Under the pieces are notes generated by a model. It did not search any database. It was not told the DNA's origin and saw only the letters and a list, made by a program, of their open reading frames with translations. A program made the translations under genes and the position numbers. 20,280 nucleotides of DNA from positions 1 to 20,280 of IMG/VR virus record IMGVR_UViG_3300031788_000131. One strand, 5' to 3'. The stretch's first letter is position 1, and each line of letters opens with the position of its first letter. This stretch comes from a virus. This document shows, piece by piece, positions 163 to 20,280 of this stretch.

Positions 163-1437
163 TCAGTAGCTGGTGCTGTCGATGACGGCGATCGTGGTCT
201 GGTCATACCAGCCGTTGCCGTCGCAACGCTCGAGCGCCATGAAGTTGAACGAGCGGCTGATGGCCTTGTCGGAATCCGTCTTCGTGGAGGAGGCCAGCTT
301 CACCCGGGGCAGGTTGATCGAGATGAACTCACCTGAATTGGGGTTGGGTGACGTTGTCATCGTGATGACGATCTGCACCTCGACCTCGTTCAGGAAATTG
401 GCCTGCAGAATGTCGTTCGCCATGAAGCAGGTCAGTGACCCGCGGACCGAGTTGGTGCCCTGGAAGATATCGGGAACGATTTCCGACCCGACCACCGGAT
501 CCGCTTGCATGTCGGCCTGAATTTGCAGCGACATGCTGGTAATATAGCCAAGCGGCACCCCGTTATAGGAGATCTGTCCCCCGGTGGCCGTCAGCGAGGT
601 GTCGGTGTCGACCGGCAGCGGCACGGTGTAGAGCTGGTTGCCGGAGGTGACCATATTCTGGCCGGTGACGGAGGCCGAGAAGGTGACAAAGCCGCTCGCC
701 GGAATCGTGAGCGAGATCTGGGTGACACGACAGCCGGTAAAGACCTGCGATCTTGCGATGTCCGAGTACCACTCCTCGAACGTGTAGGAGAGGAGCTGCT
801 GGTTGTTCGCCGGCATGATGAGCTTGAAACCCGGCACATAGACCGAGACGGCCGTCTGCGGATTGATTGTCGTGCTGTTCCAGGCCGGCAGCCCGCCATT
901 CAGGACGGCGACGTTGCCGCCCACGTTGAAGCCGACAATCTGGACGTTGCTGTTGTTATATTCGCTGATGTTTCCGGTCAGACCGGACACCCTGACGACG
1001 TCGCCGATCCGGAGACCGACAGCGGCGTAATTCACGGTCTGCGATGCCAGATCGATCATCTCCCATGGCGTGGTGCCGACCTGATAGGGTGGTGTGCCGC
1101 TATCGGCGCCAATCGAGCTGTCGGTGATGGCGGCGACCGAGCCCTGACCGGCCATCCAGCGCCAGCGGAACAGCCCCTCGAAGAACATCTTGTAGCTGGT
1201 CGGGCTGAGCTCTCCCGAGATGGTGCCGGACACCTGCCGCGGGCCGAGGCGCATGTCGCGCACCTGCTGGCTCGCAATGATCTCCTGGCTCTCGATGCTG
1301 CTGGCATTGAGGTTGAGATTGGCCGCGGTCCGCCGCAGCAGCTGGCCCACAGAGGTGCCGGCGACGCCAAAGGTGACCGTCTCCTCGGCCATGGTGACGA
1401 CCTTGTTGACGCCGCGAGCGTAAAGGCTTCCGGGCAT
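163..1437 (-). CDS. Phage tail tube protein, second copy (TTP2)
   Basis: A 424-aa protein clearly paralogous to the 426-aa tube protein at 5125-6405. N-terminal blocks align: LRRTAANLNLNASSIESQEI with MRRTSADFALVGSAITSDEI, and RLGPRQVSGTISGELSP with WLGPRSIKGQIAGDLSA, both followed by an FFEGL/LFEGL block. C-terminal blocks also align (FISINLPRVKL with FISIFLPVVKL, then F-x-F-x-ALE). The family is the all-beta phage tail tube group whose subunits stack as rings to form the DNA conduit. I chose ATG 1437 because AGGGG lies six bases upstream; the frame stays open to 1626, but that stretch runs through the end of the fibre gene. It follows the fibre gene after 79 bases, a large gap for this compact operon, and that gap carries the GGGGACCAA motif. 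It could be a second tube subunit, a specialised ring, or a decoration protein. Confidence 0.8.
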   Translation of the reverse strand: MPGSLYARGVNKVVTMAEETVTFGVAGTSVGQLLRRTAANLNLNASSIESQEIIASQQVRDMRLGPRQVSGTISGELSPTSYKMFFEGLFRWRWMAGQGSVAAITDSSIGADSGTPPYQVGTTPWEMIDLASQTVNYAAVGLRIGDVVRVSGLTGNISEYNNSNVQIVGFNVGGNVAVLNGGLPAWNSTTINPQTAVSVYVPGFKLIMPANNQQLLSYTFEEWYSDIARSQVFTGCRVTQISLTIPASGFVTFSASVTGQNMVTSGNQLYTVPLPVDTDTSLTATGGQISYNGVPLGYITSMSLQIQADMQADPVVGSEIVPDIFQGTNSVRGSLTCFMANDILQANFLNEVEVQIVITMTTSPNPNSGEFISINLPRVKLASSTKTDSDKAISRSFNFMALERCDGNGWYDQTTIAVIDSTSY

Positions 1438-1516: not shown

Positions 1517-4500
1517 CTACGGCACGCAGGCGGTGCTGCTGGCGACGATCTGTCCGCCGGAGGCGAAGCAGGCATAGGCAACGGGCGCGCCGCCGCCGCC
1601 GACGCCGACCGTGAGCGTGCCGGCAACCACCAGGTCGCCCGCGCCGTCGAGATCGGAGACCACGCTCCCGGACATCCCGCCGGCGCGTATGCGCATATGC
1701 GCGCTGCCCGGGAAGAACGCCGTCAGTTCGTTGTCGTTGATCCCGAAACCGTAACCGGTGGCGCCCGAGCCGTACAGGTCGATCAGCTCGGTGATGCGGT
1801 TGCCGAAGCCGATCGTGCTGCCCACCGTGAAGGTCCCGGCGGTGTTCAGATCCCCGGTGCTGTCGAGCAGCAGCAGGTTGGACCCGCCGATCTGGACGGC
1901 AATCGGGTAGGAGCCGTTGCTGCCGGCGATCTCGATGCCGCCGTTCAGGGTGGCGAGGCCGGTGAGGGTCGAGGACCCGGCGACCGTCAGGCCACCGGAG
2001 AAGCTTGCGGCAGCGCCGCCGATATTGCCGGAGACCCCCAGATTGCCGGAAGAGTCCAGCAAGAGCTGGTTTGTCGTGCCGTCGGCCGATTTCACCACGA
2101 CGGAATAGCTCCCGTCGGGGCCGGTGATGATGAGACCGGTGGCCAGCGAGGCCACTCCGGCGGCGGTGAGTCCGGTGAAAGTCCCGTTCGCGGCCTGGAA
2201 ATTCCCCGGGATGGTCATATTGCCCACCAGGTCGAGCAGCAGCTGATTCACCCCGGACCCGGCGACCTGGACCACGAACGGATAGCCGCTGTCGCTGCCA
2301 CGGACGATCAGGCCGCCGGTGAGGTCGAGCTTGCCGGAGGTGACGGTCACATTGCCGGTGACGTTGATGCCATTGGTGAACGCACCTGTGGCGCCCCCGA
2401 TGTTCCCGGCGACCGATAGGTTGCCGCTGCTGTCCGTCGTGGAGACGACGGTGCCTGCGTTGCCGCCGGACCGCACCCGGAACACCATGCCCCCCGGGAT
2501 GAAAGCCGTCATCTCGTTGGTGTTGATGCCGAAGCCGAGGCCCCCGGTGCCCGAGCTGTAGAGATCGAGCAGCTCGCCGAAGCGGCTGCCGAAAGTTTGG
2601 GTGCCGGCCGCCACGGTGAGGTTGCCGGCGATGTTCAGATCCCCGGTGCTGTCGAGCAGCAGCAGGTTGGACCCGCCGATCTGGACGGCAATCGGGTAGG
2701 AGCCGTCGCTGCCACGGATGATCAGGCCGCCGGCGAGGTCGAGATCGCCGGTGCCGTCGATGGAGGCGAGGCGCGCAGCCCACCGGGTGGTCGCGCCGTT
2801 CGAGGTGCTGGTCGGCTCGTTGTAGAAGCTGAACCCGCCCGTGCTGGTTTCATTGAAGAAATCGCCCTCCGAGCCGCCGGCGGTGAAGTTCCAGCCGATG
2901 GCGACATCCCCCGTATAGACCGGCATCCCGCCATTCAGGTTGCCGGTGATGTTGATGCCGGTGAACGAGTTCGAGGCTGTCGTGACACTGGCGGCGGAAA
3001 GGGTGCCGGTGACCGTCACGTTCCCGAGTGTGGTCGTCCCCGTTGCGCTGAGATTGCCGGTGGCATTGATGTTGTCCGCGGTCAGGCCGCCGGTCACGTA
3101 GGTCCCGGCGCCTCCCACCGTGATCTGGTGAGCGGGGTCGTTGATCCCGGCCCGGACATAGACGGACCCGAGTGCCACCGGGGCGGACACATAGGTGCTC
3201 GTGGCGTCGGTCATCACGAGGTAGTTGAGCCCGTTGAAAAGACCGGCATACGGGGTGCCGTAGCTGGCGCTGGTCCCAAGGATCAGGCCCGGCGCGCCGG
3301 GAAAGTCGATCATGAGCTGATTGCTGATGGTGGAGGCGCCGGTGATGACCAGCCCGCCGGCGACGGCGGTGATGTTGCCCTGCGCCTGGAATCCCCCGGC
3401 GATCGAAGCATTCCCGGCGGTGTCCAGGGCGAACTGGGTGACCAGGCTTCCGGACGGGTTGTTTTCGTGGACGAAGATCGGATAGTTCCCGCCCCCGGCG
3501 ACGGCGTTGAAGCCCCCGATCGTCAGGCCGCCGAGGATGGTGCTGATGGCGTTTCCGGCCTGGAGGTTTCCGGCGACGGCGGCATTCCCGGTGGTGTCCA
3601 GCACGAACTGGTTGATCAGAGTTCCGGACAGGTTGTTTTCACGGACGAAGATCGGGTAGTTCCCGCCCCCGGCGACGGCGTCGAAGCCGTTGATGACCAG
3701 GCCGCCGATGACCGATGAGAGGTTGCCCTGCGCCTGGAAACCTCCGGTGATGCTCATGTTGCCGCCCGTGTCGAGCAGCAGCTGGCTGAGACCACCCGAC
3801 TGTACGCGGAGGAAGTAGCCAGAGTCGCTGCCGGTGATCGCGACCCCGCCATCGGCATACACCTGAAAATTGTTCGCGCCCGCCGAATTCCCGACGTTGA
3901 ATGCGATGCCGTTGGTCATCTCGATATCGATGCCCACGCCGCCTGACCCGGTGGTCTGGCTGATATACAGCCCGGTATTGGCAAAATTCGCGAGCCAGAT
4001 GTCGCGCTGGAAGCCGGTTGTGTTGCCACCCTGGCCGGCGATGTAGAGGCCGGTGCCCACGGAGTGCGCGCCGAGCGAGAGGACCGAGAGACCGTTCAGG
4101 TTCGATGGCTGCGCCACCCCGGTGTTGTTGACGACGTCGAACTCGGTGCAGATGGAGCTCTTCACCGCCGGGTTGGTCTCGAGCGCGCAGACCTCGTTGG
4201 TGGTGAACAGGCTGGTCGGCTGGCCGAGCCAGGTGATCGGCGCCGCCCCGGTCCCGGCCTGGTAGGTGGCTGGCGGAATTTGCCCGGCGGCGCTGTCGCC
4301 GCTGCCCAGGGCGGTCCAGCCGGCGACGGTGATCGACGCGCCGTTCGATGCAAAGCCGGTGATGTAGGAGCCGAAATTCCGCGAGCTGGCGTCGATGGAA
4401 TTGGTCAGCACATACATGCCGGCCTGCAGCTTGCCCATCTGCGATGACGACAGCGGCTGTGCCGGGTAGACGTGAGTGGCGTCATAGGTCGGTCCGGTGA

Positions 4501-5125
4501 GCGTGACCGGAGCCACATGGGAATCGTTGAGCAGGTACAACGCCGCGGAATCGAAGGACCCGTACGACGCGAGTGCGGGCAGCCCGGAGCCGCAGCCGCC
4601 ATTGATGCCGGCATATTGCGACAGACCGCTGCCCGCGGCGGCGATGGCGCCGTCGAGGATCACCGACAGCCCGACACCCAGATCCTCGCACCCCATCGCG
4701 CCGCCGCGTATCGCCATGGCGCCGTTCGGAATGACCAGGCCGGTATTGGGAAAATCGTTGCCTGGCGGGTTGCCGGTGAGCAGCACGCCGCTGACCGTCA
4801 GATCGGGCATGGTCACGTTGCCGGTGAAAACCGGGTTCGCAAGCGGCGCGTAGAGCGACAGGTTGGGCGCACTGAGCCCCGTGATGTCGGACGCGGAGAG
4901 CTGGCGCCAGGTCGGTGGCCCGGTTCCGTAAAGCGGCCCGGCGAGAACCAGGCTGGCGCTGATGGACCCCGGATAGTCCAGCTTGGACGCCATGAAGGCC
5001 ATCCACTGCTCGAAAGTCCAGACCTCCTTGTAGCTAAGCGTGGGTGTGGTCTGGGCCAAGGACGGAGCGACGGCGAGCCCCATCAGCAAGGCCGCGACCG
5101 CCAGGCGCCGAAGCAGCGTGACCAT
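1517..5125 (-). CDS. Large repeat-built tail fibre protein with a Sec signal peptide
   Basis: A 1202-aa protein. Residues 1-24 form a classical signal peptide: basic MVTLLRR, hydrophobic LAVAALLMGLAVAP, then SLA before Q25. The start is set by AGGAG seven bases upstream of ATG 5125, overlapping the previous TGA (TGATG); a longer frame to 5167 runs inside the tube gene. Residues 90-105 (LYAPLANPVFTGNVTM) match the 'ANPxFTGxVT' repeat common in phage tail fibres. From residue 426 onward there are at least seven copies of a module of the form GGLxIxGSDGxYPIxVQ...LLLDxxGNLxVAGN. Six cysteines occur, two of them (C313/C326 and C1186/C1200) closely spaced pairs. No C-terminal self-cleaving chaperone is recognised. 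Likely role: receptor-binding or tail-decorating fibre. A cleavable export signal is unexpected for a virion part assembled in the cytoplasm, so surface display is an alternative. Confidence 0.75.
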   Translation of the reverse strand: MVTLLRRLAVAALLMGLAVAPSLAQTTPTLSYKEVWTFEQWMAFMASKLDYPGSISASLVLAGPLYGTGPPTWRQLSASDITGLSAPNLSLYAPLANPVFTGNVTMPDLTVSGVLLTGNPPGNDFPNTGLVIPNGAMAIRGGAMGCEDLGVGLSVILDGAIAAAGSGLSQYAGINGGCGSGLPALASYGSFDSAALYLLNDSHVAPVTLTGPTYDATHVYPAQPLSSSQMGKLQAGMYVLTNSIDASSRNFGSYITGFASNGASITVAGWTALGSGDSAAGQIPPATYQAGTGAAPITWLGQPTSLFTTNEVCALETNPAVKSSICTEFDVVNNTGVAQPSNLNGLSVLSLGAHSVGTGLYIAGQGGNTTGFQRDIWLANFANTGLYISQTTGSGGVGIDIEMTNGIAFNVGNSAGANNFQVYADGGVAITGSDSGYFLRVQSGGLSQLLLDTGGNMSITGGFQAQGNLSSVIGGLVINGFDAVAGGGNYPIFVRENNLSGTLINQFVLDTTGNAAVAGNLQAGNAISTILGGLTIGGFNAVAGGGNYPIFVHENNPSGSLVTQFALDTAGNASIAGGFQAQGNITAVAGGLVITGASTISNQLMIDFPGAPGLILGTSASYGTPYAGLFNGLNYLVMTDATSTYVSAPVALGSVYVRAGINDPAHQITVGGAGTYVTGGLTADNINATGNLSATGTTTLGNVTVTGTLSAASVTTASNSFTGINITGNLNGGMPVYTGDVAIGWNFTAGGSEGDFFNETSTGGFSFYNEPTSTSNGATTRWAARLASIDGTGDLDLAGGLIIRGSDGSYPIAVQIGGSNLLLLDSTGDLNIAGNLTVAAGTQTFGSRFGELLDLYSSGTGGLGFGINTNEMTAFIPGGMVFRVRSGGNAGTVVSTTDSSGNLSVAGNIGGATGAFTNGINVTGNVTVTSGKLDLTGGLIVRGSDSGYPFVVQVAGSGVNQLLLDLVGNMTIPGNFQAANGTFTGLTAAGVASLATGLIITGPDGSYSVVVKSADGTTNQLLLDSSGNLGVSGNIGGAAASFSGGLTVAGSSTLTGLATLNGGIEIAGSNGSYPIAVQIGGSNLLLLDSTGDLNTAGTFTVGSTIGFGNRITELIDLYGSGATGYGFGINDNELTAFFPGSAHMRIRAGGMSGSVVSDLDGAGDLVVAGTLTVGVGGGGAPVAYACFASGGQIVASSTACVP
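1843..1917 (-). repeat. 75-base perfect direct repeat, copy A (in fibre gene)
   Basis: These 75 bases read identically to 2632-2706, offset by 789 bases (263 codons, in frame). They encode the module core SYPIAVQIGGSNLLLLDSTG and flanks. Perfect identity, against looser matching of the other modules, indicates a recent duplication or gene conversion. Confidence 0.85.
2632..2706 (-). repeat. 75-base perfect direct repeat, copy B (in fibre gene)
   Basis: Partner of 1843-1917. Protein similarity continues beyond the identical stretch (GINTNEMTAFIPGG against GINDNELTAFFPGS), so the duplicated protein unit is about 105 residues long. Recombination between the copies would delete 263 residues in frame. 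Confidence 0.85.
3356..3850 (-). repeat. Three tandem fibre modules of about 60 residues
   Basis: Residues about 426-590 of the fibre contain three consecutive units beginning GGVAITGSDSGYF, GGLVINGFDAVAGGGNYP and GGLTIGGFNAVAGGGNYP. The last two are strongly similar at DNA level too, with a period near 180 bases. Each unit carries a LLLD/FVLD/FALD strand followed by GNxxxxG. Such units would be expected to stack as a beta-rich shaft. Confidence 0.8.
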
Positions 5126-6405
5126 CAGAAAGCTCCTGTACCAAACCCCGACACGCCGAACACCCAACCGCCGGCGGGCGCCGCCATGGTGCTCGGCCCG
5201 AGACTGTCCTGTATGACGATGGTGGACCCATCGAGGGTCGGGTCGGTTGTTTGCTCAAGCGCCTGGAAGGTGAAGGTCTGCACGATCGCGGTGGCGGAAT
5301 CGCTTGTGTTGCCGGTCAGCAGCTTCACCACCGGCAGGAAGATGGAGATGAAGTCGGCGCCCGGCGACGTGCTGTCGGTGAGCAGCAGCGAGATCTGGAA
5401 CGTGTTCTCGGCCAGCATGTCGCTGACCATCTGGTCGTTGCTGATCATCAGGATCGACAGCGAACCGGTCACCCGCAGCCGGCCCTGCAGGATCGTATCG
5501 AGCGTATTGGAGGCGCAGTTGGCGTCGGCGTTGGTCTCGGCGGCGATGCCGAGCGCGAACGACGTGATATAGCCGATGCGCTCCCCGTTCAGCATCAGCA
5601 CGCCGCCACAGGCCATCAGCGGCGGCGACGTGGTGATCTGGGCCGGAACCCCATAGAGGGGGTAGACCGCCTGGACCATGGTCTGGCCGGTCAGGGTGGC
5701 GACGAAGGTCGCGATCCCGCTGGCGGACGCGGTGATGGTCAGCCCGTCGACCACGCAACCGGCGAACCGCTCGACCACGTCGCGGTCGAGAAACTGGTCC
5801 TCGATCGTGTAGGTGAATTTCTGCAGCCCGGTGGCGGGCATGAAGCATTTGGCGCCGACCACGGCGACGATGTCGGGGCTCGCGCCGGCGGCGAAGACGA
5901 CCGCCGAGTTGTAGAGGTTGAGCTGGGTGGCGAACGCGGTGGTGGTGATGAAATCGATCGCGTTGTCGGCGGAAGCGTCCCCGCCGACGCCATTCAATCT
6001 CACGATATCCCCGCCGCGGAAGCCTGCCGCCACCAGGTCCTGGCCGGGCACCGCGAGGATCGACAGGCCGAGATCCTGGGTGAGCGTGGCACCGGGGAGC
6101 GGAGTGAGGGTGGTGCCGGCCGTGAACGGACTGCGCAGCAGGCCCTCGAACAGCATGGTGCAGCTGCCGGCCGAGAGGTCACCGGCGATCTGGCCCTTGA
6201 TGCTGCGCGGTCCGAGCCAGAAATTCGCCACCTGGTTCGAAGGGCGTATCTCGTCGGAGGTGATGGCGCTGCCCACCAGCGCGAAATCGGCCGAGGTGCG
6301 GCGCATCATCTGCCCGGGGCCGGCGGAATCGATGCCCGGGGTGGTTTCGGGCGCCATGACGACAACGCGGTGGCCGCCGATGGCCGCACCACCGTACTCG
6401 CTCAA
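5125..6405 (-). CDS. Phage tail tube protein, first copy (TTP1)
   Basis: A 426-aa predicted all-beta protein, placed directly after the tail terminator gene as in siphovirus-like gene orders, and paralogous to the protein at 163-1437. Tube proteins polymerise as stacked rings around the tape measure protein. The start is a TTG at 6405 overlapping the previous stop (TTGA). The TTG start is supported because its N-terminus (HRVVVMAPETTPG...GQMMRR) aligns with the paralogue (NKVVTMAEETVTFG...GQLLRR); an ATG start at 6357 would remove half of this matched region and has no visible Shine-Dalgarno sequence. The C-terminus ends in glycine-rich GGWVFGVSGFGTGAF, absent from the paralogue. A weak coupled TTG start could mean tightly controlled synthesis. 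Confidence 0.8.
   Translation of the reverse strand: MSEYGGAAIGGHRVVVMAPETTPGIDSAGPGQMMRRTSADFALVGSAITSDEIRPSNQVANFWLGPRSIKGQIAGDLSAGSCTMLFEGLLRSPFTAGTTLTPLPGATLTQDLGLSILAVPGQDLVAAGFRGGDIVRLNGVGGDASADNAIDFITTTAFATQLNLYNSAVVFAAGASPDIVAVVGAKCFMPATGLQKFTYTIEDQFLDRDVVERFAGCVVDGLTITASASGIATFVATLTGQTMVQAVYPLYGVPAQITTSPPLMACGGVLMLNGERIGYITSFALGIAAETNADANCASNTLDTILQGRLRVTGSLSILMISNDQMVSDMLAENTFQISLLLTDSTSPGADFISIFLPVVKLLTGNTSDSATAIVQTFTFQALEQTTDPTLDGSTIVIQDSLGPSTMAAPAGGWVFGVSGFGTGAF
5133..5137 (-). promoter_or_regulatory. Shine-Dalgarno AGGAG for the fibre gene
   Basis: Coding-strand ACAGGAG ends seven bases before ATG 5125. It is one of the strongest ribosome-binding sites in the window, decides the fibre start, and lies inside the end of the first tube gene, whose TGA shares a base with the fibre ATG. 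Confidence 0.75.
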
Positions 6406-10751: not shown

Positions 10752-11066
10752 TCACTTCCCTGGCCACGACTCGCCCGCCATGCAGGTTCCAGCCACCAGC
10801 AGACCCCAGGTCTCCGGGGCGCCGGCGGGATAGGCTTCGCGCCCACGCAGCCGCAACAGGGGGGACGCCCTCGGAGCCCGCGTCCGTACCACATTGGTTT
10901 CGGCGGCCCGCGCTATCGCGGCGTTGCGCGATATCCCCAGGGCAAACGAGATCGCATCCCACGAGGCCCCGGGCACGGCAGCAAGGGCGACCAGGCGGTC
11001 TTGCAGGCCATTGTCCCAGTCAAGGCGGCCCCTTGGATGGGGGCGTGTGGTGATTTGCCGCGTCAT
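10752..11066 (-). CDS. Small helix-turn-helix protein, GcrA-like
   Basis: A 104-aa protein starting at ATG 11066, which overlaps the TGA of the secreted-protein gene as ATGA. Residues about 14-45 (LDWDNGLQDRLVALAAVPGA followed by SWDAISFALGISRNAAIARA) match the helix-turn-helix layout of GcrA-like proteins (W-x-x-x...L...S...IA-x-x-L-G...RNAVIGKA). GcrA is an alphaproteobacterial cell-cycle regulator. The C-terminal part ends YPAGAPETWGLLVAGTCMAGESWPGK; a proline-glycine 'PAGxPxTWGxxxxGT' block is one I associate with small phage proteins in alphaproteobacteria. Probable role: DNA-binding regulator, perhaps of the adjacent palindromes or of host genes. The family match is by eye and short, so only the helix-turn-helix reading is firm. 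Confidence 0.5.
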   Translation of the reverse strand: MTRQITTRPHPRGRLDWDNGLQDRLVALAAVPGASWDAISFALGISRNAAIARAAETNVVRTRAPRASPLLRLRGREAYPAGAPETWGLLVAGTCMAGESWPGK

Positions 11067-11365
11067 GGCTTCGCAGGCGTCACCGGACATGCGGCCGGGC
11101 TCTGCTGCTGACGCGCGGCGGCCGTCTGCAGCTCCAGCTTCAGCTGCGCGGCCGTGCCGGGCCGGTCCGACAGATAGACCATCAGCATCAGCGCCGTCTG
11201 CTCCGGCACCGGAATGGTCCCAGGCGGCAGCAGCAGGTTCGGCGCCGGCGGCGGCGCCTGCTTCTGGGGCGGCGGCTGGGGCTCTGATCGCGAGGTGCCG
11301 ACCTGCGCCATGGCCGGCCCGGCGTTCAGCAGAAGAAAAGCCAGGATGGTGGGAAGCTGACGCAC
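11063..11365 (-). CDS. Small secreted proline-rich protein
   Basis: A 100-aa protein starting at GTG 11365, four bases after the previous stop. Residues 1-20 (MRQLPTILAFLLLNAGPAMA) form a signal peptide with an A-M-A cleavage site before Q21. Residues about 25-50 are proline/glutamine-rich (SEPQPPPQKQAPPPAPNLLL), followed by a helical part (PEQTALMLMVYLSDRPGTAA then QLKLELQTAAARQQQ) and one cysteine near the end. No lipobox is seen, so it is probably periplasmic rather than a lipoprotein. It lies between the scaffold-like and helix-turn-helix genes, overlapping the latter by four bases. I recognise no family. A secreted protein inside a head cluster suggests a moron that changes the host envelope, or a lysis or exclusion accessory. 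Confidence 0.6.
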   Translation of the reverse strand: MRQLPTILAFLLLNAGPAMAQVGTSRSEPQPPPQKQAPPPAPNLLLPPGTIPVPEQTALMLMVYLSDRPGTAAQLKLELQTAAARQQQSPAACPVTPAKP

Positions 11366-11369
11366 CGGA

Positions 11370-12893
11370 TCAGCCTATCGCGCCGATCGACACCGGGCGG
11401 CGGAAGGCGGCCTTGGTCATCACCAGGAAACGGTCCTCCGGGCTCATCTTCGCCAGCGCTTCCTCCGACAGATCGTCGTCGATCGGCGCGAAGACGGTAT
11501 CGGCCGCCTTCAGCGAAGCCGGCGTCGCAGCCGCGCCGATCACCGCCCGGCCTGGCATCGGTTGGCCGAGCATCTTTTCGAGCTGCGGACGCAACGACGA
11601 CAGTTCCTGCTCGACCCGGGCGTCGACCATCTTCTGCAACGTCTCCTCGTCGATCGTCGGCGCACGCTTGCCCATCATGCCCGACGGGGCAGCAGGCGCC
11701 AGGCTGGCCTGCGGCGCGGTCGGATCGTTCATGCTCGGATCCGTCGTCCCCTGGATGATCTCCTGGATGTGGTTGATCTGGATCAGCAGCGCCGCGGCGA
11801 GCTGGCCGGCAACCGTGAGCGGATCGTCGCCCTGGTCGTCGGTCCCGGGCATCTGGCCCCCGCCCATCGACGGGTCGGGCGCCTGGGAGGGATCGTTGGC
11901 CGGGTCGGGCGAGCCGCCGGCGGTCGGATCGGCGGCGGCCGGGTCGGTCGCCGCGTCGCTGTCGGGATTGGACGGCCCGGAATCGGTGTCGGATGGCGCG
12001 GCCGGCTTCTTCTTCGGCGGGAACGGGGATCCGGCCTTCTGCAGTTCGTTGTCGAAGCCCAGCGCCTTGACCAGCTGCTGCTCGCTGATCCCGGCCGCGA
12101 TCAGCATCGCCGAGCCGCTCTGGACGCGCGCGGCGTCGATGTCGTCGGGGTCGGTGATGAACTTCGACAGCTCCTCCGGGAGCGCTGTCTTCAGCGTGAG
12201 CTCGCCGCCCTTCAGCAAGGGCACGCTGACATAGGTCATCCCCTTCTCGAACTCCTCGCCTTCCTCGGGGAAGTCGACGTGCTCGTTGACGGCGGCGCGC
12301 AGGGCCAGACCACCGACGGCAACCATGTGGTCGAGCAGGTCGGCGACCTCCTCGGAGGCCGGGTCCGCCTCGTTCGTGTCGGACGAATAGTCCTTGCCGT
12401 CCTTGATGCGCTGCACCTGGCTTGCCACCATGCCGATCAGGTTGGCGACACGCCCGACCGCACCCAGACCTTTGTAGAGTTCCTCCTCGTTGGAGGTGGC
12501 CTCGACCTCTTCGGCGAGTTTGCCGAGCTCGTCCTCGGTGGTGGCGACCAGCATCTCCTGGAACTCGCCAAAACTCTTCTTCAGCAGCTCGTCGCGATCG
12601 ACCGGTGCCGCGGTGACGATGTCGGCCACCGATTTCGACAGCAGGCTGACCATTTCCTCGATGGTGTCGGTCATCGTCGGCATCTGAGAGTTACCCTTCC
12701 TCATCTGCCGACCGTCATGGGCATTGCTTGGTCCCCGGCGCGCGCTTCGTCTTGCGGCGAGCAGGCGGCGGAGCTTCGTGATGCGCGATTCCCCGAGATT
12801 CGGGCCGGGGTAGAGGTTCAGCACCGGCTTCTCGATCGGATAGGCGGCGAGTCCGGTGGTCGGCGATGACGGGCTGCTGAACGTCGCGCTCAC
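11370..12893 (-). CDS. Acidic scaffold-like capsid assembly protein
   Basis: A 507-aa frame if it begins at GTG 12893, which overlaps the giant gene's TGA (GTGA); 437 aa if it begins at ATG 12683 (MPTMTDTIEEMVSLL), which has AGGAAGGG about ten bases upstream. Codons 1-47 look native, but codons 48-70 include rare AGA and CGA and cross a GGGGACCAA motif, so both starts are open. Numbered from the GTG: 75-165 acidic helical region, 180-285 a second helical part containing QLVKA and ELQKA, 291-358 a Pro/Asp/Gly-rich disordered linker, 359-445 helices likely to coil (TIDEETLQKMVDARVEQELS), and a basic C-terminus with FRRP. Acidic, helical, disordered proteins just before the capsid gene are typical of scaffolds. 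This is inferred from composition and position, not from family identity. Confidence 0.55.
   Translation of the reverse strand: MSATFSSPSSPTTGLAAYPIEKPVLNLYPGPNLGESRITKLRRLLAARRSARRGPSNAHDGRQMRKGNSQMPTMTDTIEEMVSLLSKSVADIVTAAPVDRDELLKKSFGEFQEMLVATTEDELGKLAEEVEATSNEEELYKGLGAVGRVANLIGMVASQVQRIKDGKDYSSDTNEADPASEEVADLLDHMVAVGGLALRAAVNEHVDFPEEGEEFEKGMTYVSVPLLKGGELTLKTALPEELSKFITDPDDIDAARVQSGSAMLIAAGISEQQLVKALGFDNELQKAGSPFPPKKKPAAPSDTDSGPSNPDSDAATDPAAADPTAGGSPDPANDPSQAPDPSMGGGQMPGTDDQGDDPLTVAGQLAAALLIQINHIQEIIQGTTDPSMNDPTAPQASLAPAAPSGMMGKRAPTIDEETLQKMVDARVEQELSSLRPQLEKMLGQPMPGRAVIGAAATPASLKAADTVFAPIDDDLSEEALAKMSPEDRFLVMTKAAFRRPVSIGAIG
12728..12736 (-). promoter_or_regulatory. GGGGACCAA motif before the scaffold-like internal start
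   Basis: Coding-strand GGGGACCAA, 44 bases before ATG 12683. It lies inside the doubtful N-terminal extension of the scaffold-like frame; at the other sites the motif is intergenic, which argues that translation there begins, at least partly, at 12683. Confidence 0.4.
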
Positions 12894-15800
12894 GCGAAGC
12901 GGCCGCGCTGGTCGTGGTTGGGATCACCGCCATGACCGCCCAGACCCGAAGGTGCTGCGCGCGCCGATCCGTTGCGCAACGCCTGCTGCTGCGCGGCTTG
13001 ATAGGTAGCAAGCCCTGGTGACGGAGCGGACGCGGTTGGCGGGCCGCGACCGGGCTGCATGGCGGTGATCGCCGGCGCGTGACGCTGCGCCGTTGCTGCC
13101 GCCCCGCCCACGTAGCGCGATGCCGCGCGCTGGGCGGTGGGTGCGTCGTAGCCGGCGAAATACTTGCCGATATAGCTGCCGGCCTCCCCGCCGGCCCATG
13201 AGCCGAGCGCGCCGCCGACCACCGAACCGACCGGGCCGAGAAGGTCACCGCCGATGCCGCCGACCGTCTTGCCGACGAGCTTCCCCACACCCGCCCCGGC
13301 CGCCATGCCGGCGATGTTGCCGCCGAGGTTGCCGCCCAGGCGCCCCACGGTCGGCCCAGGCGCCTCCTCCGGCGCGGCGTAGGCGGGCGCGGTCTTCCCG
13401 CCTGCCGCATAGGCGGCCTGGATACCCCTGTTGGCGAGCGCGCCACCGGCGTATCCAACGCCCACCGATGCGGCGAGGCTGGTCCCCTGGATCGCCGCGT
13501 TGCGCAAGGTGAGCGCCTGTTTCGCCGAACCGACGGCAGCCGAGGCCGCTCCGGCGATGCCGCCCGGCGTCAGGAACGATCGTGCCCGAGCGATGAAGCT
13601 GCCGAGCCCGGCCCGGAAACCGGGGCTTGCGGCGGCGTCGGTCCCGAGCTGCAGCGCGGTCCCCGCCGCCTGGCCGCCGGGGATGAATTTCTCCGCCAGC
13701 TTGCCGGCGATCATCCACGCGGAATCCGCCGCGAGATTGCTGCCGAGTTCGTTGGCGACCCGGACCGGGTTGAGGAACGCCAGTGGTGGCGCGGTGCCGG
13801 CGGCAAGCTTGCGTCGCACCACCCCCAGGCCCGCATCGACCGCCCCTTCCGCACCTTCCTTGATCACCGTGCTGCCGAGGCTGCCTTGGCCGTCTTTCGC
13901 CAGCGGTTCGAACGTCTTCATCAGCGCGTCGAAATCGTCGAGCAGAACCGCCGCTTCTTTGACGCGCTCGTCGAGCACGGCGCGGGCGTTGCTCATCAGC
14001 GACCCGGCAAAGTAGTTGAGGTCGTTCGTGCGCACGGCGTCCATCGCCATGGCCCGGTTTTCGTCGCCGCCGCTGGCCATGTCGACCAGGGTCTGGTAGG
14101 CGGCCTTCGTCCCCTCGTGGACGGTGATTTCCTCGTCGGGATGCAGACCATGCACCGCCCGCGCCATGCGATCGACCATGTCGATGACAGCCGCGTGGTC
14201 GGTGGCTATATGAACGAGGTGATCGGCGTGGTCCAGGTTTCGGGCCATGAAACCGGCGCTCCGCTCCAGCGCCTCCTGCGACCAGCCGTCCGGCAGCTCC
14301 GTGGTCTCGTGGAGCGGCGGCGGTGCCCGAGACCCGCGCCGCGTTTCCTCCCAAGGCGGCGGCTCCCCCGAAGCCTCGGCACCCGTCGCCTCGGCACCCG
14401 AAGCCAGCTGCTGGTGCAAGGCCTTGACGCTGTCGGTCGACAGCTGCTTCGCCGTCGCCACGGTGGCGATCGCGCGGTGCAGGTTCTTGGCCAGCACTGG
14501 ATCCGTCGCCGCGCGGGCGGCGAATTTGGTGATCTCGGACTGCAGCGCGTCCGACACCTCCTCCTTGTCCGTCGTCGACCCGAACCGCTTGTCGTCGAAG
14601 ATGCCGCGGGCGGCTTGCTGGCCGCCGGTCTTCCAGCCGGTCAGCAGCTCATAGGTCTGACGGTTGGTGAGAATACGCCCCTGTGCCGAGTAGAGCGAAC
14701 GCAAAGCCGACGGCTTGTTGCCCATCTGGTTCAGGACGTGCTTTTTGAAACTGTTCGACAGGTTGACGTAATGCTGCTCGCCCGCGTCGTTGTCGCGATA
14801 GGAGATGTCTCCGGCCGCATCCGCCGGCGTCGATTTCAGCTTGCCGCTCGATTTCAGCTTGTTGATCGCGTCGTCGATCTGCCGCTTGTCGTGGTGGTTG
14901 AGGCCGGGCGCGTCACTGTACGAGCCGGTGCCGCCCCCGGCGTTGTTTTTGCGCTTCTGGGCCTGCTCGGCCTGGTAGCTGCGCACGCTGGACAGGCTGC
15001 CGCCAACATGCAGCGGCCTCGGCGGCTTGTTGATGTCTTCGTAGGTCTGGCCCCAGAGCACGACACGATCATTCGGGTTTTTCGGGTCGGGCACGCTGAG
15101 CGCGGTGTAACCCTGGCCGGTCACCGCATCGATCTTGTGCTCCATCTTGACCTGCTTCGGGAACTCGGCGGGTGTTCCTCCGTCCTTGGAGCCGAGGACC
15201 TTGTCGTGCGCGTAGGCCAGCGACTCCCGCCCGAAATCCAGCAGGGCAGCGGAGTTCGCCGCCCTTATGGCGATCTTGCCCGGCGAATGGACCCATTTGC
15301 CGTCTTTCTCCTGGCGCATGAACAGCTCGGCGTAGGTGTCGCGCACCGACTGGTTGATCGCATTTCCGGCTTTGGTGGCGGCGGCGACGCCACCGTCCTT
15401 GACCGCTTTTTTGGTCGGATCGCTTCCGCGCACCGCGGTGACGAACGCCTTCATCGCCGCCGCGCCGGGGGCTGCCATCAGCGCGCGGGCCGCCGAGCGT
15501 GGTGTGCGGCTGATCAGCTCGAGATCGTCGCGCAATTCGGCCGGTAGCCAGGACGGAAGACGGAACTTGCCCTCCTTGGCGTTGCCCGAGGCGTCAAACG
15601 CTTCCTGATAGGCGATGGCGGCCTTGTTGCGCGCGCCCCTCAGCTTCGTGTGTTCGGTGCGCGCATTGGTGACGAGGACGTTTGCCTCTTCGTCGGTCCG
15701 GACGATGTCGGCCGCCGTATCCTGCAGCTTCTGGATGTCGGCGTCGCTCATGTCCTTCGGCTTGAAGCCCTTCTGGATGAGCCGCAATTCGTCCAGATCG

Positions 15801-18148
15801 GCTTTGGCCGAGGTTTTTTTCTTCAGTGCCCGCTCCAGGATGGCCTGCTGCTGCGTCAGCGCCTTCTCGCTGTCGAGGAAACTCCTGGCCGCTGCCTTTG
15901 CGTCCCTTGGAATCGCGCCGGTGCGGCGCCCGAGCAGCACATGCGCGGCGAGGTCGCTGTTTTGCCGGCCGATGAGGTCGGAGACGTATTCGCTGCGTGC
16001 GATGGCGATTCGCTTGTCGACATGGAGTTCCGCGCGTCTCTTCGCATCGCTCGCCAGCTTCCGCTTCTGCGTGTTCAGCGCGTATTCCGTTGGGCGCTCC
16101 AGCGGGTCTCCGGTGATCGGCGAACGGATATCCGCGCCCGCATCCGAGAGTTTCGCGTGCAGGTCGGCGTGTTTGCCGTATTCGTCGTAAACGGCGTCGT
16201 GCGCCGCCTTCGCCTGGTCGAACGTCGCCTGCAACGGCGCCATCTCTTCCACCGACGCGCCCTTCTGATGGGCTTCCGACAGTTTTATCGAGGCTTCGGT
16301 CTTGACGCCGCGGGTCTTTTTTTGCTGCGCCTCCAGCCGGTCGAGCTTCTTCTGGCTCGCCTTCAGCGCCCGGTCATGCGCGGTGATGACCTCGTTGACC
16401 TTCGCCAGCTGGGCGCCACGGCCATTGAACAGCGACAGCGCCAGCGCGCGCTCCTTGTCGGGCAAGCCCGCGACAGCACGTTCGAAATCCGCCGGCGACA
16501 GGCGCTCGACCGCGCGCTGGACGGCGGTCTGCGTGGACGCGGGCGTGGACGAGCTCCTGCGCCGCAGGTCGCCCACGGTCTCCCAGACATCGGCCCCTTT
16601 TTCGGACGCTTTCGTGCTCGGCAGGGAGGTCGCATCGTGAGCGGCCAGCACGCCGGCGATCTTGCCGTTGATCTCGTTGCGCACCAGGGTCTGGTAATGC
16701 ACCGCGGGATCCAGCCCGTGCGCGTCGAGCGCCGCCTGGGCCGCCGTGTGTTCTTCGTCCGCCTCGTAGCGCTCCCGGACCAGCGTGGACCGTTTGGCCC
16801 ACAGGTCGCCATGCGGCGTGCCTGTCGGATACTCGGTCCGCGCCGCCCGCATGGCTGCCGCGGCCTCGTCGATCGTCTTGCGCCCAAGGGTGCGGAACGC
16901 GCCTGCATTGTGCCGGCTGAGCGCCAGCAGGGCGCCCCCGCCGGCCAGCGCGCCGCCCACCACAGCGCCGGCGATGCCGGCGCCGCGCGAGGTGAAGCGG
17001 CCTTTGGCGTCGTGGTTGGGGTTGCCCTCGTGGACACCGATCTCGCCGCCGGCAACGGCCCCGGCCGCAACCGACGCCGCCGCCCCGAGACCGCGCGCGA
17101 TGGCTTTGCGTGTCGCGACATGCCCGACCGCCGCTCCGGCGGCCCCGGCCAGGGTGGCGAACAGCGTCTTGCCGTAGCGGGAATACAGCCCGCCGGCCTT
17201 CTGCAGCGCGTCATCGTCGCGCAGCGCCGCGAGCATCGCCTGGTGGGCGGCGACGATCTCCGGCGCCTGCACCATCTTCTGGATGGTGCGGTACGAGTAG
17301 GCATCGAGGGTCCGTCCGACGAGCTGCGGGTCCACCGGACTGTCCTTGAGTTCGTTGTTGAGGACATACGCCGGAGGCAGCGCCAGGCCGGCGAGTGCCA
17401 GGCCGCGATACAGGGCCGCTGTCTTCTTCCCGGAACCCTTGCTGGCCGCCATGTCGAGGATGGCATTCACCCCGAAGCTCGCGCCGCTGGTCGACAGGCG
17501 CCCGAGACCACGTCCGAACTTCTGGCCGAATTCGCCTGACTGGCGGACCGCCGTCGACAGCTCGGCCCGGGTCAGCAGGCGCGGCGCCAGGCGGCGGGTG
17601 GCGTAATGCACCGCACTGCCGGCAGCGTCGATGGGCAACGCGAAGGCCTGGCGCCCAAGCGCGCCGAGGGCGCCCTGTGCGGCGCGTGTGACCAGCCCGT
17701 TCGGCCGGCCGCGCGCGAGGCTGGCGATCAGCGCGAGACCGGCCGCCGTCGACCCCAGCTCGCGGTAGAAGCCGTAGTTCATCTCGTTGCGCCGCTCGGG
17801 GATCACGTCGCTGGTGAGCGCGTTGTAGCCCGCGCTGCTGTCCTGCAGTGCGGCGTGCGCGCCGCCATCCGCCGGGACGTGTTCGGCGACGGCCTTTGCG
17901 CTGAATTCGCCCGCCTTTCCGCGTGGGTGCTTGCCGGCATCGAACGGCTCGGCCTTGCACAGTTTCTCCAGATGACGATCGACGGCGCCCATGGCGTGCT
18001 CGCCCGGGTTCTGGCCGCGATAGGCGCCCTGATAGACTTTCTTCAGCTCTCCGAGCCGGGTCGGCGCGGCGCCTGGCGCCTCGTTATGGGCGATGACGCG
18101 CTGGCGCAGGTCGGAGATCAGGCCCGAGGTGAAGGTGAGGCGACCCAT
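12890..18148 (-). CDS. Giant 1752-aa glycine-zipper and coiled-coil protein, candidate internal/ejected virion protein
   Basis: The largest gene here. Residues 20-66 contain RLGELKKVYQGAYRGQNPGE followed by HAMGAVDRHLEKLC, a block I have seen in phage head proteins. Glycine/alanine-rich stretches with membrane-like patterning occur at about 130-180, 325-410 and the last 250 residues (for example GGNLGGNIAGMAAGAGVG, VGSVVGGALGSWAGGEAGSY). Residues about 450-860 are long charged helices, probably coiled coil. Three short peptides recur: KHPRGKAGEF (73-82), NHDAKGRF (378-385) and NHDQRGRF at the extreme C-terminus; GNAKEGKF (855-862) may be a fourth. It starts at ATG 18148, six bases after the protease stop, with GAGGGGG upstream. 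Large glycine-zipper proteins in head clusters are often packaged and ejected with DNA; that is my inference. No catalytic motif was found. Confidence 0.7.
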   Translation of the reverse strand: MGRLTFTSGLISDLRQRVIAHNEAPGAAPTRLGELKKVYQGAYRGQNPGEHAMGAVDRHLEKLCKAEPFDAGKHPRGKAGEFSAKAVAEHVPADGGAHAALQDSSAGYNALTSDVIPERRNEMNYGFYRELGSTAAGLALIASLARGRPNGLVTRAAQGALGALGRQAFALPIDAAGSAVHYATRRLAPRLLTRAELSTAVRQSGEFGQKFGRGLGRLSTSGASFGVNAILDMAASKGSGKKTAALYRGLALAGLALPPAYVLNNELKDSPVDPQLVGRTLDAYSYRTIQKMVQAPEIVAAHQAMLAALRDDDALQKAGGLYSRYGKTLFATLAGAAGAAVGHVATRKAIARGLGAAASVAAGAVAGGEIGVHEGNPNHDAKGRFTSRGAGIAGAVVGGALAGGGALLALSRHNAGAFRTLGRKTIDEAAAAMRAARTEYPTGTPHGDLWAKRSTLVRERYEADEEHTAAQAALDAHGLDPAVHYQTLVRNEINGKIAGVLAAHDATSLPSTKASEKGADVWETVGDLRRRSSSTPASTQTAVQRAVERLSPADFERAVAGLPDKERALALSLFNGRGAQLAKVNEVITAHDRALKASQKKLDRLEAQQKKTRGVKTEASIKLSEAHQKGASVEEMAPLQATFDQAKAAHDAVYDEYGKHADLHAKLSDAGADIRSPITGDPLERPTEYALNTQKRKLASDAKRRAELHVDKRIAIARSEYVSDLIGRQNSDLAAHVLLGRRTGAIPRDAKAAARSFLDSEKALTQQQAILERALKKKTSAKADLDELRLIQKGFKPKDMSDADIQKLQDTAADIVRTDEEANVLVTNARTEHTKLRGARNKAAIAYQEAFDASGNAKEGKFRLPSWLPAELRDDLELISRTPRSAARALMAAPGAAAMKAFVTAVRGSDPTKKAVKDGGVAAATKAGNAINQSVRDTYAELFMRQEKDGKWVHSPGKIAIRAANSAALLDFGRESLAYAHDKVLGSKDGGTPAEFPKQVKMEHKIDAVTGQGYTALSVPDPKNPNDRVVLWGQTYEDINKPPRPLHVGGSLSSVRSYQAEQAQKRKNNAGGGTGSYSDAPGLNHHDKRQIDDAINKLKSSGKLKSTPADAAGDISYRDNDAGEQHYVNLSNSFKKHVLNQMGNKPSALRSLYSAQGRILTNRQTYELLTGWKTGGQQAARGIFDDKRFGSTTDKEEVSDALQSEITKFAARAATDPVLAKNLHRAIATVATAKQLSTDSVKALHQQLASGAEATGAEASGEPPPWEETRRGSRAPPPLHETTELPDGWSQEALERSAGFMARNLDHADHLVHIATDHAAVIDMVDRMARAVHGLHPDEEITVHEGTKAAYQTLVDMASGGDENRAMAMDAVRTNDLNYFAGSLMSNARAVLDERVKEAAVLLDDFDALMKTFEPLAKDGQGSLGSTVIKEGAEGAVDAGLGVVRRKLAAGTAPPLAFLNPVRVANELGSNLAADSAWMIAGKLAEKFIPGGQAAGTALQLGTDAAASPGFRAGLGSFIARARSFLTPGGIAGAASAAVGSAKQALTLRNAAIQGTSLAASVGVGYAGGALANRGIQAAYAAGGKTAPAYAAPEEAPGPTVGRLGGNLGGNIAGMAAGAGVGKLVGKTVGGIGGDLLGPVGSVVGGALGSWAGGEAGSYIGKYFAGYDAPTAQRAASRYVGGAAATAQRHAPAITAMQPGRGPPTASAPSPGLATYQAAQQQALRNGSARAAPSGLGGHGGDPNHDQRGRFA

Positions 18149-18154
18149 CTGCTG

Positions 18155-19888
18155 TCAGTCCCCCTCGGCCAGCAGATCGCGGCGCGCGCGAGAGCCGAGC
18201 TCATCGAGCCCGCCCGCGGATTTCCCCATGGCGTCATGCACGCGCTTGAGCCTGAAGGCGACGGCGGCAGCGGTGGCGCCGGCTCGCGTGGCCTGCTTGA
18301 GCGAGGTGGGACGGACGGTGACCTTCCGGTTGAGACGGTGGTACTGCTCGAGCTTGCCGGCCCGCTTGGCGCGCCGGACGCGCATGTAGCGGTCCGCGAG
18401 CGCACCCACGGCAGCGCCGGCGAAGGTGCCGGCCGCACCCAGGGCGAACGCGCCCCCGACAGGCGCGTGTCTTCCGGCGTACCGCCCCAGAAAGGCAGGA
18501 AAGTGACTGTCTGAACCGGCGGCCTGCGACCAGGCGCGACCGGCTTTCTCGCCGAGATGGCCGAGCTTGTTGGCGTATTTCGCGCCGAGCGCGAAGCCGC
18601 CGATTGCCCCGGCCGCGCCACCGACAAAGCGTGCCGCGCGCTCCACGGTCTTGCCGGCGAATTTGCCGTCGTGCTCGCGCGGGTGCTTGGTGTTGTCGTA
18701 GGCCTTGCAGAGCTCGCCGAATGTCATCGGCGCGTCGGCTGACTTGCTGAAATGGCGGACCGCAGCGAGCCCGGTGGCGAGACTAATGCCACCCGCCGCC
18801 AGCTCCCCACCCAGCTTGACGTGTTCGCGGGTGATCGGGTGTACGCCGACGTTTCTGCGTATCCAGTCTTCCTGCTCGTGATCGCCGGCCTGCTTGGCGC
18901 GTCGCATACGCAGATAGCGATCGGTCAACGCACCCAGGGTGGCGCCGGCCACGTAGCCACCGGCACCCAAAGCGAACGCCCCAACATGCGCTCCCTGACC
19001 CGCGCCAAGTCTGATTACACGCGCCGCGGCCCTCTCCCCAGCCCGAAGGCCGAATTCTCTGCCGACCGCTTCCCGAACAGCGCCCCCGATCCTGGCAGCG
19101 GCGCGGCCGCCGTAGTGGCTGCCCAGAACATGCCCCGCGACCCCGCCGGCCGCGATGCCGCCATAGGCCCCGGCACTCTGCACCGTGTTGGAGGAAAACC
19201 TGCCGTCGGTCTCGCGCGGATGCCGGGTTTCCTCGTAGGCCTTGACGAGACGCTCGCCGAACGTCATCGGCGGCGCGAGCGGGATCGGGCGCGTTTCCCA
19301 GGCCCGGGCGAAACTCTTCGGGCGCGACTTCCACAGCTGACCGAAGGAATGCACCACGCCGACCAAAGGCAGCAGCTCGACCAGGCCGTCCGCCTTCACC
19401 AGCTCGGCGAAGCGGGCCGTCGGGATGCAGGGATTGTCCACCAGGGACATCTCGCGGACGATCGGGGTGTAGCGCGTGTGCCCGGTGGCGGGGTCGCTCC
19501 ACTTCTTGGCGTAGCCGCCCCCAACACTGAAGCCGGTATAACACCCGGCAAGGCATTTTTTCCATTCGTTATCGTCAGCGATATACGCACCAAGTTTTAC
19601 GAGCTGCTTGTCGTCGTCAAAGTCTATTTCAGGAATGGTTCCGGCGACGGTCTTCGTGTGCATGACACGCAGGTTGCCTTTGGAGAGGCCGTTGCTGCGC
19701 TCGAAGCAGTCGTTGGACCACGCCTCGAACGCGGGGCGCGCGGTCGGGTAGTCCATGATCTCCTTTGACTTGTCGACGATGTCGCCCTGCGCGCCGATGC
19801 CGTAGATCATCCGCTTTTCGACGTCGATCTTGGTCAGCGGGATGACGAAGCCGAGCTCGGCCGCACCGCCCGGCGTGTAGATGGTCAC
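18155..19888 (-). CDS. XkdF-like phage prohead serine protease with duplicated glycine-rich C-terminal module
   Basis: A 577-aa protein from GTG 19888 (overlapping the previous TGA as GTGA; AAGGGG nine bases upstream). Residues 13-170 match the XkdF-type prohead protease family: IVDKSKEIMDYPTARPAFEAW, NLRVMHTKTVAGTI with candidate catalytic His77, CYTGFSVGGGY with candidate nucleophile Ser121, and EMSLVDNPC. Such proteases mature the head by cutting scaffold and capsid. Residues 207-351 and 387-527 are a duplication: each begins PMTFGE followed by L-x-KAY and an HPRE-x-DG(R/K)F block, and ends with a glycine-rich segment (GAFALGA) and a basic D-R-Y-(L/M)-R helix. Fusion of a protease with membrane-like glycine-rich modules is unusual. 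The longer frame to 20206 is arginine-rich and out of frame with the better-coding upstream ORF, so I reject that start. A patch of AT-rich codons covers the active-site segment. Confidence 0.75.
   Translation of the reverse strand: MTIYTPGGAAELGFVIPLTKIDVEKRMIYGIGAQGDIVDKSKEIMDYPTARPAFEAWSNDCFERSNGLSKGNLRVMHTKTVAGTIPEIDFDDDKQLVKLGAYIADDNEWKKCLAGCYTGFSVGGGYAKKWSDPATGHTRYTPIVREMSLVDNPCIPTARFAELVKADGLVELLPLVGVVHSFGQLWKSRPKSFARAWETRPIPLAPPMTFGERLVKAYEETRHPRETDGRFSSNTVQSAGAYGGIAAGGVAGHVLGSHYGGRAAARIGGAVREAVGREFGLRAGERAAARVIRLGAGQGAHVGAFALGAGGYVAGATLGALTDRYLRMRRAKQAGDHEQEDWIRRNVGVHPITREHVKLGGELAAGGISLATGLAAVRHFSKSADAPMTFGELCKAYDNTKHPREHDGKFAGKTVERAARFVGGAAGAIGGFALGAKYANKLGHLGEKAGRAWSQAAGSDSHFPAFLGRYAGRHAPVGGAFALGAAGTFAGAAVGALADRYMRVRRAKRAGKLEQYHRLNRKVTVRPTSLKQATRAGATAAAVAFRLKRVHDAMGKSAGGLDELGSRARRDLLAEGD
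18308..18730 (-). repeat. C-terminal module, copy 2 (in protease gene)
   Basis: Encodes residues about 387-527, paralogous to 18836-19270. Matching blocks are PMTFGELCKAYDNTKHPRE, then GAFALGAAGTFAGAAVGALA and DRYMRVRRAKRAG. The period is about 180 residues. Confidence 0.8.
18836..19270 (-). repeat. C-terminal module, copy 1 (in protease gene)
   Basis: Encodes residues about 207-351. Blocks are PMTFGERLVKAYEETRHPRE, GAFALGAGGYVAGATLGALT and DRYLRMRRAKQAG. Similarity to copy 2 is clear at protein level and partial at DNA level, so this is an older duplication than the 75-base fibre repeat. Confidence 0.8.
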
Positions 19889-20082
19889 GCCGTCCGCCCC
19901 TTCGCGTGCGCCCAGCGGGCCTTCGCGGCGGCGACGCGTTCCGCCCGCTGCCTGGCGGAGAGCGCCCTGTGCTGGGAGAGTTTGTCGTGCGCAGCGGCGA
20001 CCTGTTTGCGATAGCGGTCGGCCCCGATGACCGCACCGGCCGCGGCTGCGACCGGAATGACGTGGTGATGGAGGGCCGCCAC
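19885..20082 (-). CDS. Small basic protein upstream of the protease, start uncertain
   Basis: From GTG 20082 the frame gives 65 residues: HHHVIPVAAAAGAVIGADRY, a short alanine-rich hydrophobic stretch, then basic helical residues with ARQRAERVAAAKARWAHAKG. Its TGA overlaps the protease GTG (GTGA). The same frame stays open up to an in-frame TGA at 20280-20278, and that upstream stretch (with KQRAHRWKRSGGPKIGFDP) uses GC-ending codons like real genes, yet contains no ATG, GTG or TTG before 20082. The gene may therefore be longer, with an unusual start, a frameshift, or a link to a gene beyond the window. It could be a small membrane-linked head protein or the tail of a larger protein. No family is recognised. 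Confidence 0.45.
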   Translation of the reverse strand: MAALHHHVIPVAAAAGAVIGADRYRKQVAAAHDKLSQHRALSARQRAERVAAAKARWAHAKGRTA

Positions 20083-20280
20083 TGCCTTCTGCTCCCAGCC
20101 GCGGGGCTTGCCGCGGGGCTGGGCCCCCCGGGCGCCCCCGTAGCCGGATGTGAACGTCGGATCGGCAGGATCGAACCCGATCTTCGGACCACCGCTGCGT
20201 TTCCAACGGTGCGCGCGCTGCTTGTTCGTCTCTCCCGCCGGGATCGCCGGCCCGTCCGGCTCATCGTCCCACTGATCTCA

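Follow-up and report, generated by a model that had tools for sequence, protein, structure and literature searches.

The window analysed here is the whole viral record, 20,280 bases in length. A second record, IMGVR_UViG_3300029954_000064 (28,199 bases), carries the same phage and reaches beyond the gene in the tail-chaperone position to a 1528-aa tape-measure-like gene. The phage contigs end short of the distal tail-tip genes, and another receptor-binding protein could be encoded there. On the minus strand of the window the gene order is protease-like, 1752-aa, 507-aa, 100-aa, capsid-like (phrog_13692), adaptor, neck, terminator, tail tube 1, fibre and tail tube 2 (Table 1). The two tail tube proteins are paralogues with 36% identity, and they lie on either side of the fibre gene. 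The ATG of the fibre overlaps the TGA of tail tube 1 (TGATG), and the fibre is therefore probably made late, with the tail. In L086, L087, L089 and L090, which hold distant relatives of the tubes, a single tube follows the gene in the terminator position and a fibre was not seen there. The refined family profile described below likewise found no fibre homologue in some 150 capsid-relative loci, from viral and genome contigs; because these relatives of the capsid occur without it, the fibre gene does not move together with the capsid.

Two further features of this gene neighbourhood can be recorded. In L005, the relative whose capsid, neck and terminator genes are closest, the tail terminator continues in the same frame into a fibre-like stretch of 980 aa or more (L005:13831-17193). 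This stretch occupies the slot just downstream and runs to the contig end. Within the window, the 1752-aa and protease-like proteins (12890-20206, minus strand) have short motifs in common in several places, such as HPRxxDGRF / NHDxxGRF.

Table 1. Features of the fibre gene and of the adjoining tail tube genes, in window positions.
Feature	Positions	Strand	Remarks
Tail tube protein 1 (PF18906)	5125..6357	-	directly upstream of fibre gene, overlapping
Ribosome binding site AGGAG	5133..5137	-	7 nt from ATG
Fibre/tailspike-like protein, 1202 aa, with predicted Sec signal peptide	1517..5125	-	ATG 5125-5123, stop 1519-1517
Signal peptide, residues 1-24	5054..5125	-	predicted cleavage SLA/QT at 24/25; home-made scorer
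Linker GSISASLVLAGPLYGTGPPTWRQLSASDITGL, residues 53-84	4874..4969	-	common to tailspike-like ORFs of Acetobacteraceae
Core domain, residues 108-437 in alignment, ~122-437 conserved	3815..4804	-	family-wide, tailspike-depolymerase type
Cysteine pair C146/C178	4592..4690	-	not in the initial annotation
Cysteine pair C313/C326	4148..4189	-	
Low-charge Gly-rich region, ~residues 430-1160	1646..3838	-	seven repeats of 58-64 residues around [LF]xLD
C-terminal cysteine pair C1186/C1200	1526..1570	-	
Tail tube protein 2 (PF18906)	163..1425	-	directly downstream of fibre gene

The fibre protein and its predicted export signal

The N-terminus of the fibre has the form of a classical Sec signal peptide, MVTLLRRLAVAALLMGLAVAPSLA/QTT (the slash marks predicted cleavage), in which R6/R7 and a hydrophobic core of 12-16 residues precede the SLA/QT site with its small residues at -3 and -1. 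A strong Shine-Dalgarno site is found at ATG 5125 only; the in-frame internal starts have no match or one of 3 nt, and upstream of M42 and M45 there are weak GAG motifs. The initial annotation had described a textbook signal peptide with an AGGAG site fixing the start, and this description is borne out by the position of the site and by a score of 7.86 with our home-made scorer. Ten window proteins were tested in this way: besides the fibre, eight score 0 and one, a 100-aa ORF, also scores as a signal peptide. Among genes in related phage loci, 11/1034 were flagged (Shine-Dalgarno required, score >= 7), a count that includes duplicates, namely the fibre gene and the 100-aa ORF in two copies each. 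This Pro-rich ORF lies between the capsid and 507-aa genes (window 11063-11365, minus strand), begins with the predicted signal peptide VRQLPTILAFLLLNAGPAMA/QV and has no known relatives.

Several other readings of the N-terminus were rejected. A dual start, with a cytosolic virion form made from M42 or M45, is missing strong Shine-Dalgarno support. A lipobox is missing near residue 24, which removes the lipoprotein reading, and the autotransporter reading was dropped when no such Pfam domain was found. No outer-membrane element of any kind (lipobox, autotransporter or other) was recognised in the fibre, and this counts against surface display.

The protein is rich in glycine (17%) and poor in lysine (0.5%), and it has exactly six cysteines, those listed in Table 1. 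The pairs 313/326 and 1186/1200 were given exactly in the initial annotation, but the third pair, 146/178, was overlooked. The whole protein has no match in Pfam, PHROG, NCBIfam, INPHARED or PLSDB, and a PDB search with it alone returned nothing significant.

A family with a tailspike-type core

Relatives were found in the Acetobacteraceae. Ten of 299 genomes of this family gave matches to fibre residues ~122-350, and a core profile (A2) identified members in 32/397 sampled Acetobacteraceae genomes, including several prophages; a class-level sample had a member in 1/385 genomes, an Acetobacteraceae genome already found. The refined profile matches the window fibre at E = 7.7e-31, a value that is not independent since the fibre is one row of the seed alignment. 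In a tree of 40 cores the fibre is a distant member (best identity 27%) on a long, poorly placed branch. Multiple copies per genome occur. One genome (G018) carries five (L174, L175, L214, L217 and L218), three of them near-identical and situated in prophage fibre regions. Copies L182, L222 and L250 are broken or split, and thus some chromosomal copies are decaying.

A profile of 33 family members reaches one solved structure, the tailspike depolymerase PDB 24qj (gp83 of the Acinetobacter phage Solidus), at E = 9.5e-7 over two stretches. By this profile comparison the core is akin to phage tailspikes. AlphaFold modelling gave nothing usable for the window core or for L251 (mean pLDDT 34). The top Foldseek match of the L251 model is 24qj as well (E = 1.4e-4), which from so poor a model is worthless alone and is cited since the sequence profile reached 24qj independently. 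Catalytic residues were not identified in the core. Several family members end in a stretch of 40-76 residues that matches PHROG 17312 (tail protein); such a match was not found in the window fibre itself. The label 'tail fibre' is fair with respect to the architecture, with its seven repeats, and to the kinship of the core with a tailspike depolymerase; the incorporation into virions that the label implies is putative.

The feature that runs through the family is the N-terminus. Our scorer finds a signal peptide in 36/38 distinct full-length members. With equally lenient scoring, by which membrane proteins are counted too, the background among other genes of >=300 aa in these loci is 52/206. 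The two misses look signal-like by eye: L224 begins with MAVNPLYLLYPILLLLFCFSAKA/D and L238 has an in-frame hydrophobic stretch ending IANGA/D. Nearly all relatives, standalone chromosomal genes included, repeat the n-h-c layout and the small residues at -3/-1 on sequences that are unrelated. The signal sequences differ among members, and therefore it is the feature that is kept and not the letters. Homologues lacking the signal peptide had been named in the initial annotation as the finding that would speak against export; the search for them gave the opposite outcome.

The cysteines follow a similar pattern. Mature family members have an even number in 36/38 cases against 95/186 background genes (Fisher p ~1e-7, a value that overstates independence, the members being related). 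The number per protein is between 6 and 14, and spacings of 3, 11 and 15 recur among the pairs, which vary by subgroup; the C-terminal pair is also present in most members, with a spacing of mostly 3 or 14-15. Such parity and pairing across the family are as expected of disulfides formed in an oxidising compartment. The signal peptides of the homologues and the cysteine parity lend strong support to the proposed export, and we regard it as very probable, as far as sequence can tell, that the fibre leaves the cytoplasm by the Sec pathway.

The linker of Table 1, or the APLANPVFTG stretch right after it, recurs in ORFs from other Acetobacteraceae that resemble spikes or fibres, and these ORFs come in two N-terminal forms. 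Four such ORFs outside the core family have a signal peptide (L278:6026-8428, L279:2155-4449, L284:3365-6625 and L285:3330-8498), whereas two begin with segments that by eye resemble those used for virion attachment (MPTLQQLPQATVIDPTDQIFIEKDG in L282 and MPDARISELPAASAAADTDLTALVQ in L286). To judge by this small sample of four against two ORFs, the signal peptide and the attachment segment may be alternatives to each other. In the window fibre no known virion-attachment family was found; residues 25-52 are without any match and may yet serve in attachment.

Genomic settings of the family

Family members occur both in phage tail regions and by themselves. In the prophages L251, L255 and L234 the member follows genes for baseplate-type, short-fibre and Gp77-like adaptor proteins, the Gp77 match being above the Pfam cut-off in L251, as it is in L214, and just below it in L255 and L234. 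In the prophages L174 and L214 it stands beside a Gp77-like or phrog_4137 protein, in L225 it follows phrog_863/1833 and phrog_4137 proteins, and in L179 and L226 it adjoins a tail-sheath gene. A Gp77-like adaptor gene was not recognised in the window, nor was one seen with the standalone copies. Just downstream of the family member in L251 there is a second signal-peptide gene (L251:10856-12424), with tailspike-like sequence and a phage-like C-terminus.

Standalone copies, a term that we apply from flanks of at most ~10 kb in a subset of loci, adjoin nhaA and copB (L173), gyrA (L180), rluD (L218), umuC (L215) and MFS (L236) genes, while L176, L217 and L229 adjoin glycosyltransferase genes; these names are our readings of Pfam matches. 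For the copies that sit alone beside housekeeping genes, at least, dependence on a virion is unlikely. In the tree of 40 cores a minimum of seven changes between phage and standalone settings is needed.

Neither the libraries nor the open-access papers that we searched describe the family, or a Sec signal peptide on the fibre of any tailed phage.

Possible roles and known systems

From these observations we infer the cellular location of the fibre, its passage of the outer membrane and its function. We propose an exported, disulfide-bonded tailspike-type protein that acts on the envelope of the producing cell, probably by masking or altering receptors, and we give this proposal an even chance of being right. 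Hypothetically, the fibre would leave by the Sec pathway, lose its signal peptide through cleavage after Ala24 and form three disulfides as it folds in the periplasm. It would then act on the envelope of its producer, occupying or altering a glycan or protein receptor. Once this receptor was blocked, further phages could not adsorb and released progeny would not be lost on the receptors of lysed cells. For masking or alteration of receptors as the role of the fibre, the arguments seem to us evenly balanced. On this reading the family is cargo that Acetobacteraceae phages bear within or next to their tail operons, and on host chromosomes it also stands alone. A wider proposal is that Acetobacteraceae and their phages use exported, disulfide-stabilised tailspikes as surface shields, receptor-binding proteins directed at the envelope of their own producer that block or remove phage receptors and serve exclusion or progeny protection in phages and defence on chromosomes; we offer it tentatively, as a possibility on the doubtful side.

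The main rival reading draws on the prophages. The distance of the window fibre from the rest of the family also counts against masking. Copies placed after a Gp77-like adaptor or phrog_4137 (L174/L214, L225, L234, L251 and L255) suggest attachment to the virion, which counts against masking, and because adaptor genes precede several prophage copies, incorporation into the virion may still follow folding in the periplasm. The fibre would in that case be exported, become oxidised and trimeric outside the cytoplasm, and join tails via an adaptor protein only once lysis had mixed the compartments. Its tail-fibre position after baseplate, short-fibre and Gp77-like genes in L251, L255, L234 and L214, its place by phrog_4137 in L225, its transcription along with tail genes in the window and its fibre-like repeats would all agree with such a protein. 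We nevertheless consider it unlikely: many standalone copies by housekeeping genes keep both the signal peptide and even cysteines, some linker-sharing spikes have an attachment-like N-terminus and do without a signal peptide, no tailed-phage precedent was found in the open-access papers searched, and an adaptor homologue was not recognised in the window.

It is also improbable that the family is a host extracellular one, a polysaccharide depolymerase or adhesin that acts on exopolysaccharide and was picked up by phages as a moron, clearing or binding slime and masking no receptor. The match of the core to a tailspike depolymerase, the glycosyltransferase genes next to several chromosomal copies and the several copies per genome speak for it; against this, catalytic residues were not identified, some members have C-termini matching a family of phage tail proteins, and the co-transcription of the window fibre with tail genes better suits a role in the phage cycle. 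Much less probable than either is that the N-terminus is no signal peptide, being instead a hydrophobic anchor in the virion, or that the true start lies downstream at M42 or M45. Hydrophobic N-termini can be structural and GAG motifs do precede both methionines, but these are weak beside the Shine-Dalgarno site at ATG 5125, and an anchor would hardly recur as an n-h-c pattern on unrelated sequences in nearly all relatives, standalone chromosomal genes included.

In tailed phages, tailspikes and tail fibres are regarded as virion parts that are assembled in the cytoplasm. A conserved family with a tailspike-type core, a Sec signal peptide and near-strict cysteine pairing, mobile between tail operons and chromosomes, points to a second, non-virion use of receptor-binding proteins. 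It also makes a question testable, namely whether a cell that exports the receptor-binding domain of its phage becomes resistant to that phage. If these fibres instead mature in the periplasm for the virion, this would be a new assembly route in tailed phages.

Among known systems, the tailspike depolymerases represented by Solidus gp83 are the nearest, with a core that is homologous by profile and the top fold match; the family differs from 24qj in its Sec signal peptide and paired cysteines, and in that catalytic residues were not identified. Likeness to the tail protein PHROG 17312 is limited to a C-terminal stretch in several members. With the partner fibres of the podophage GP4 gp77 fibre-tail adaptor (PF23148), several prophage members share a position after a Gp77-like gene, whereas none was recognised in the window. 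A precedent for exported superinfection-exclusion proteins of phages is T5 Llp, which disables the phage's own receptor; it is a small periplasmic outer-membrane lipoprotein, and exclusion proteins of its kind are expressed early (PMC9586334). The fibre is in contrast a large, non-lipidated tailspike relative, probably made late, and we claim no relation in sequence. What the two would share is that both are phage proteins exported by the cell, proposed to stop the use of a receptor by further phages and the loss of progeny on debris.
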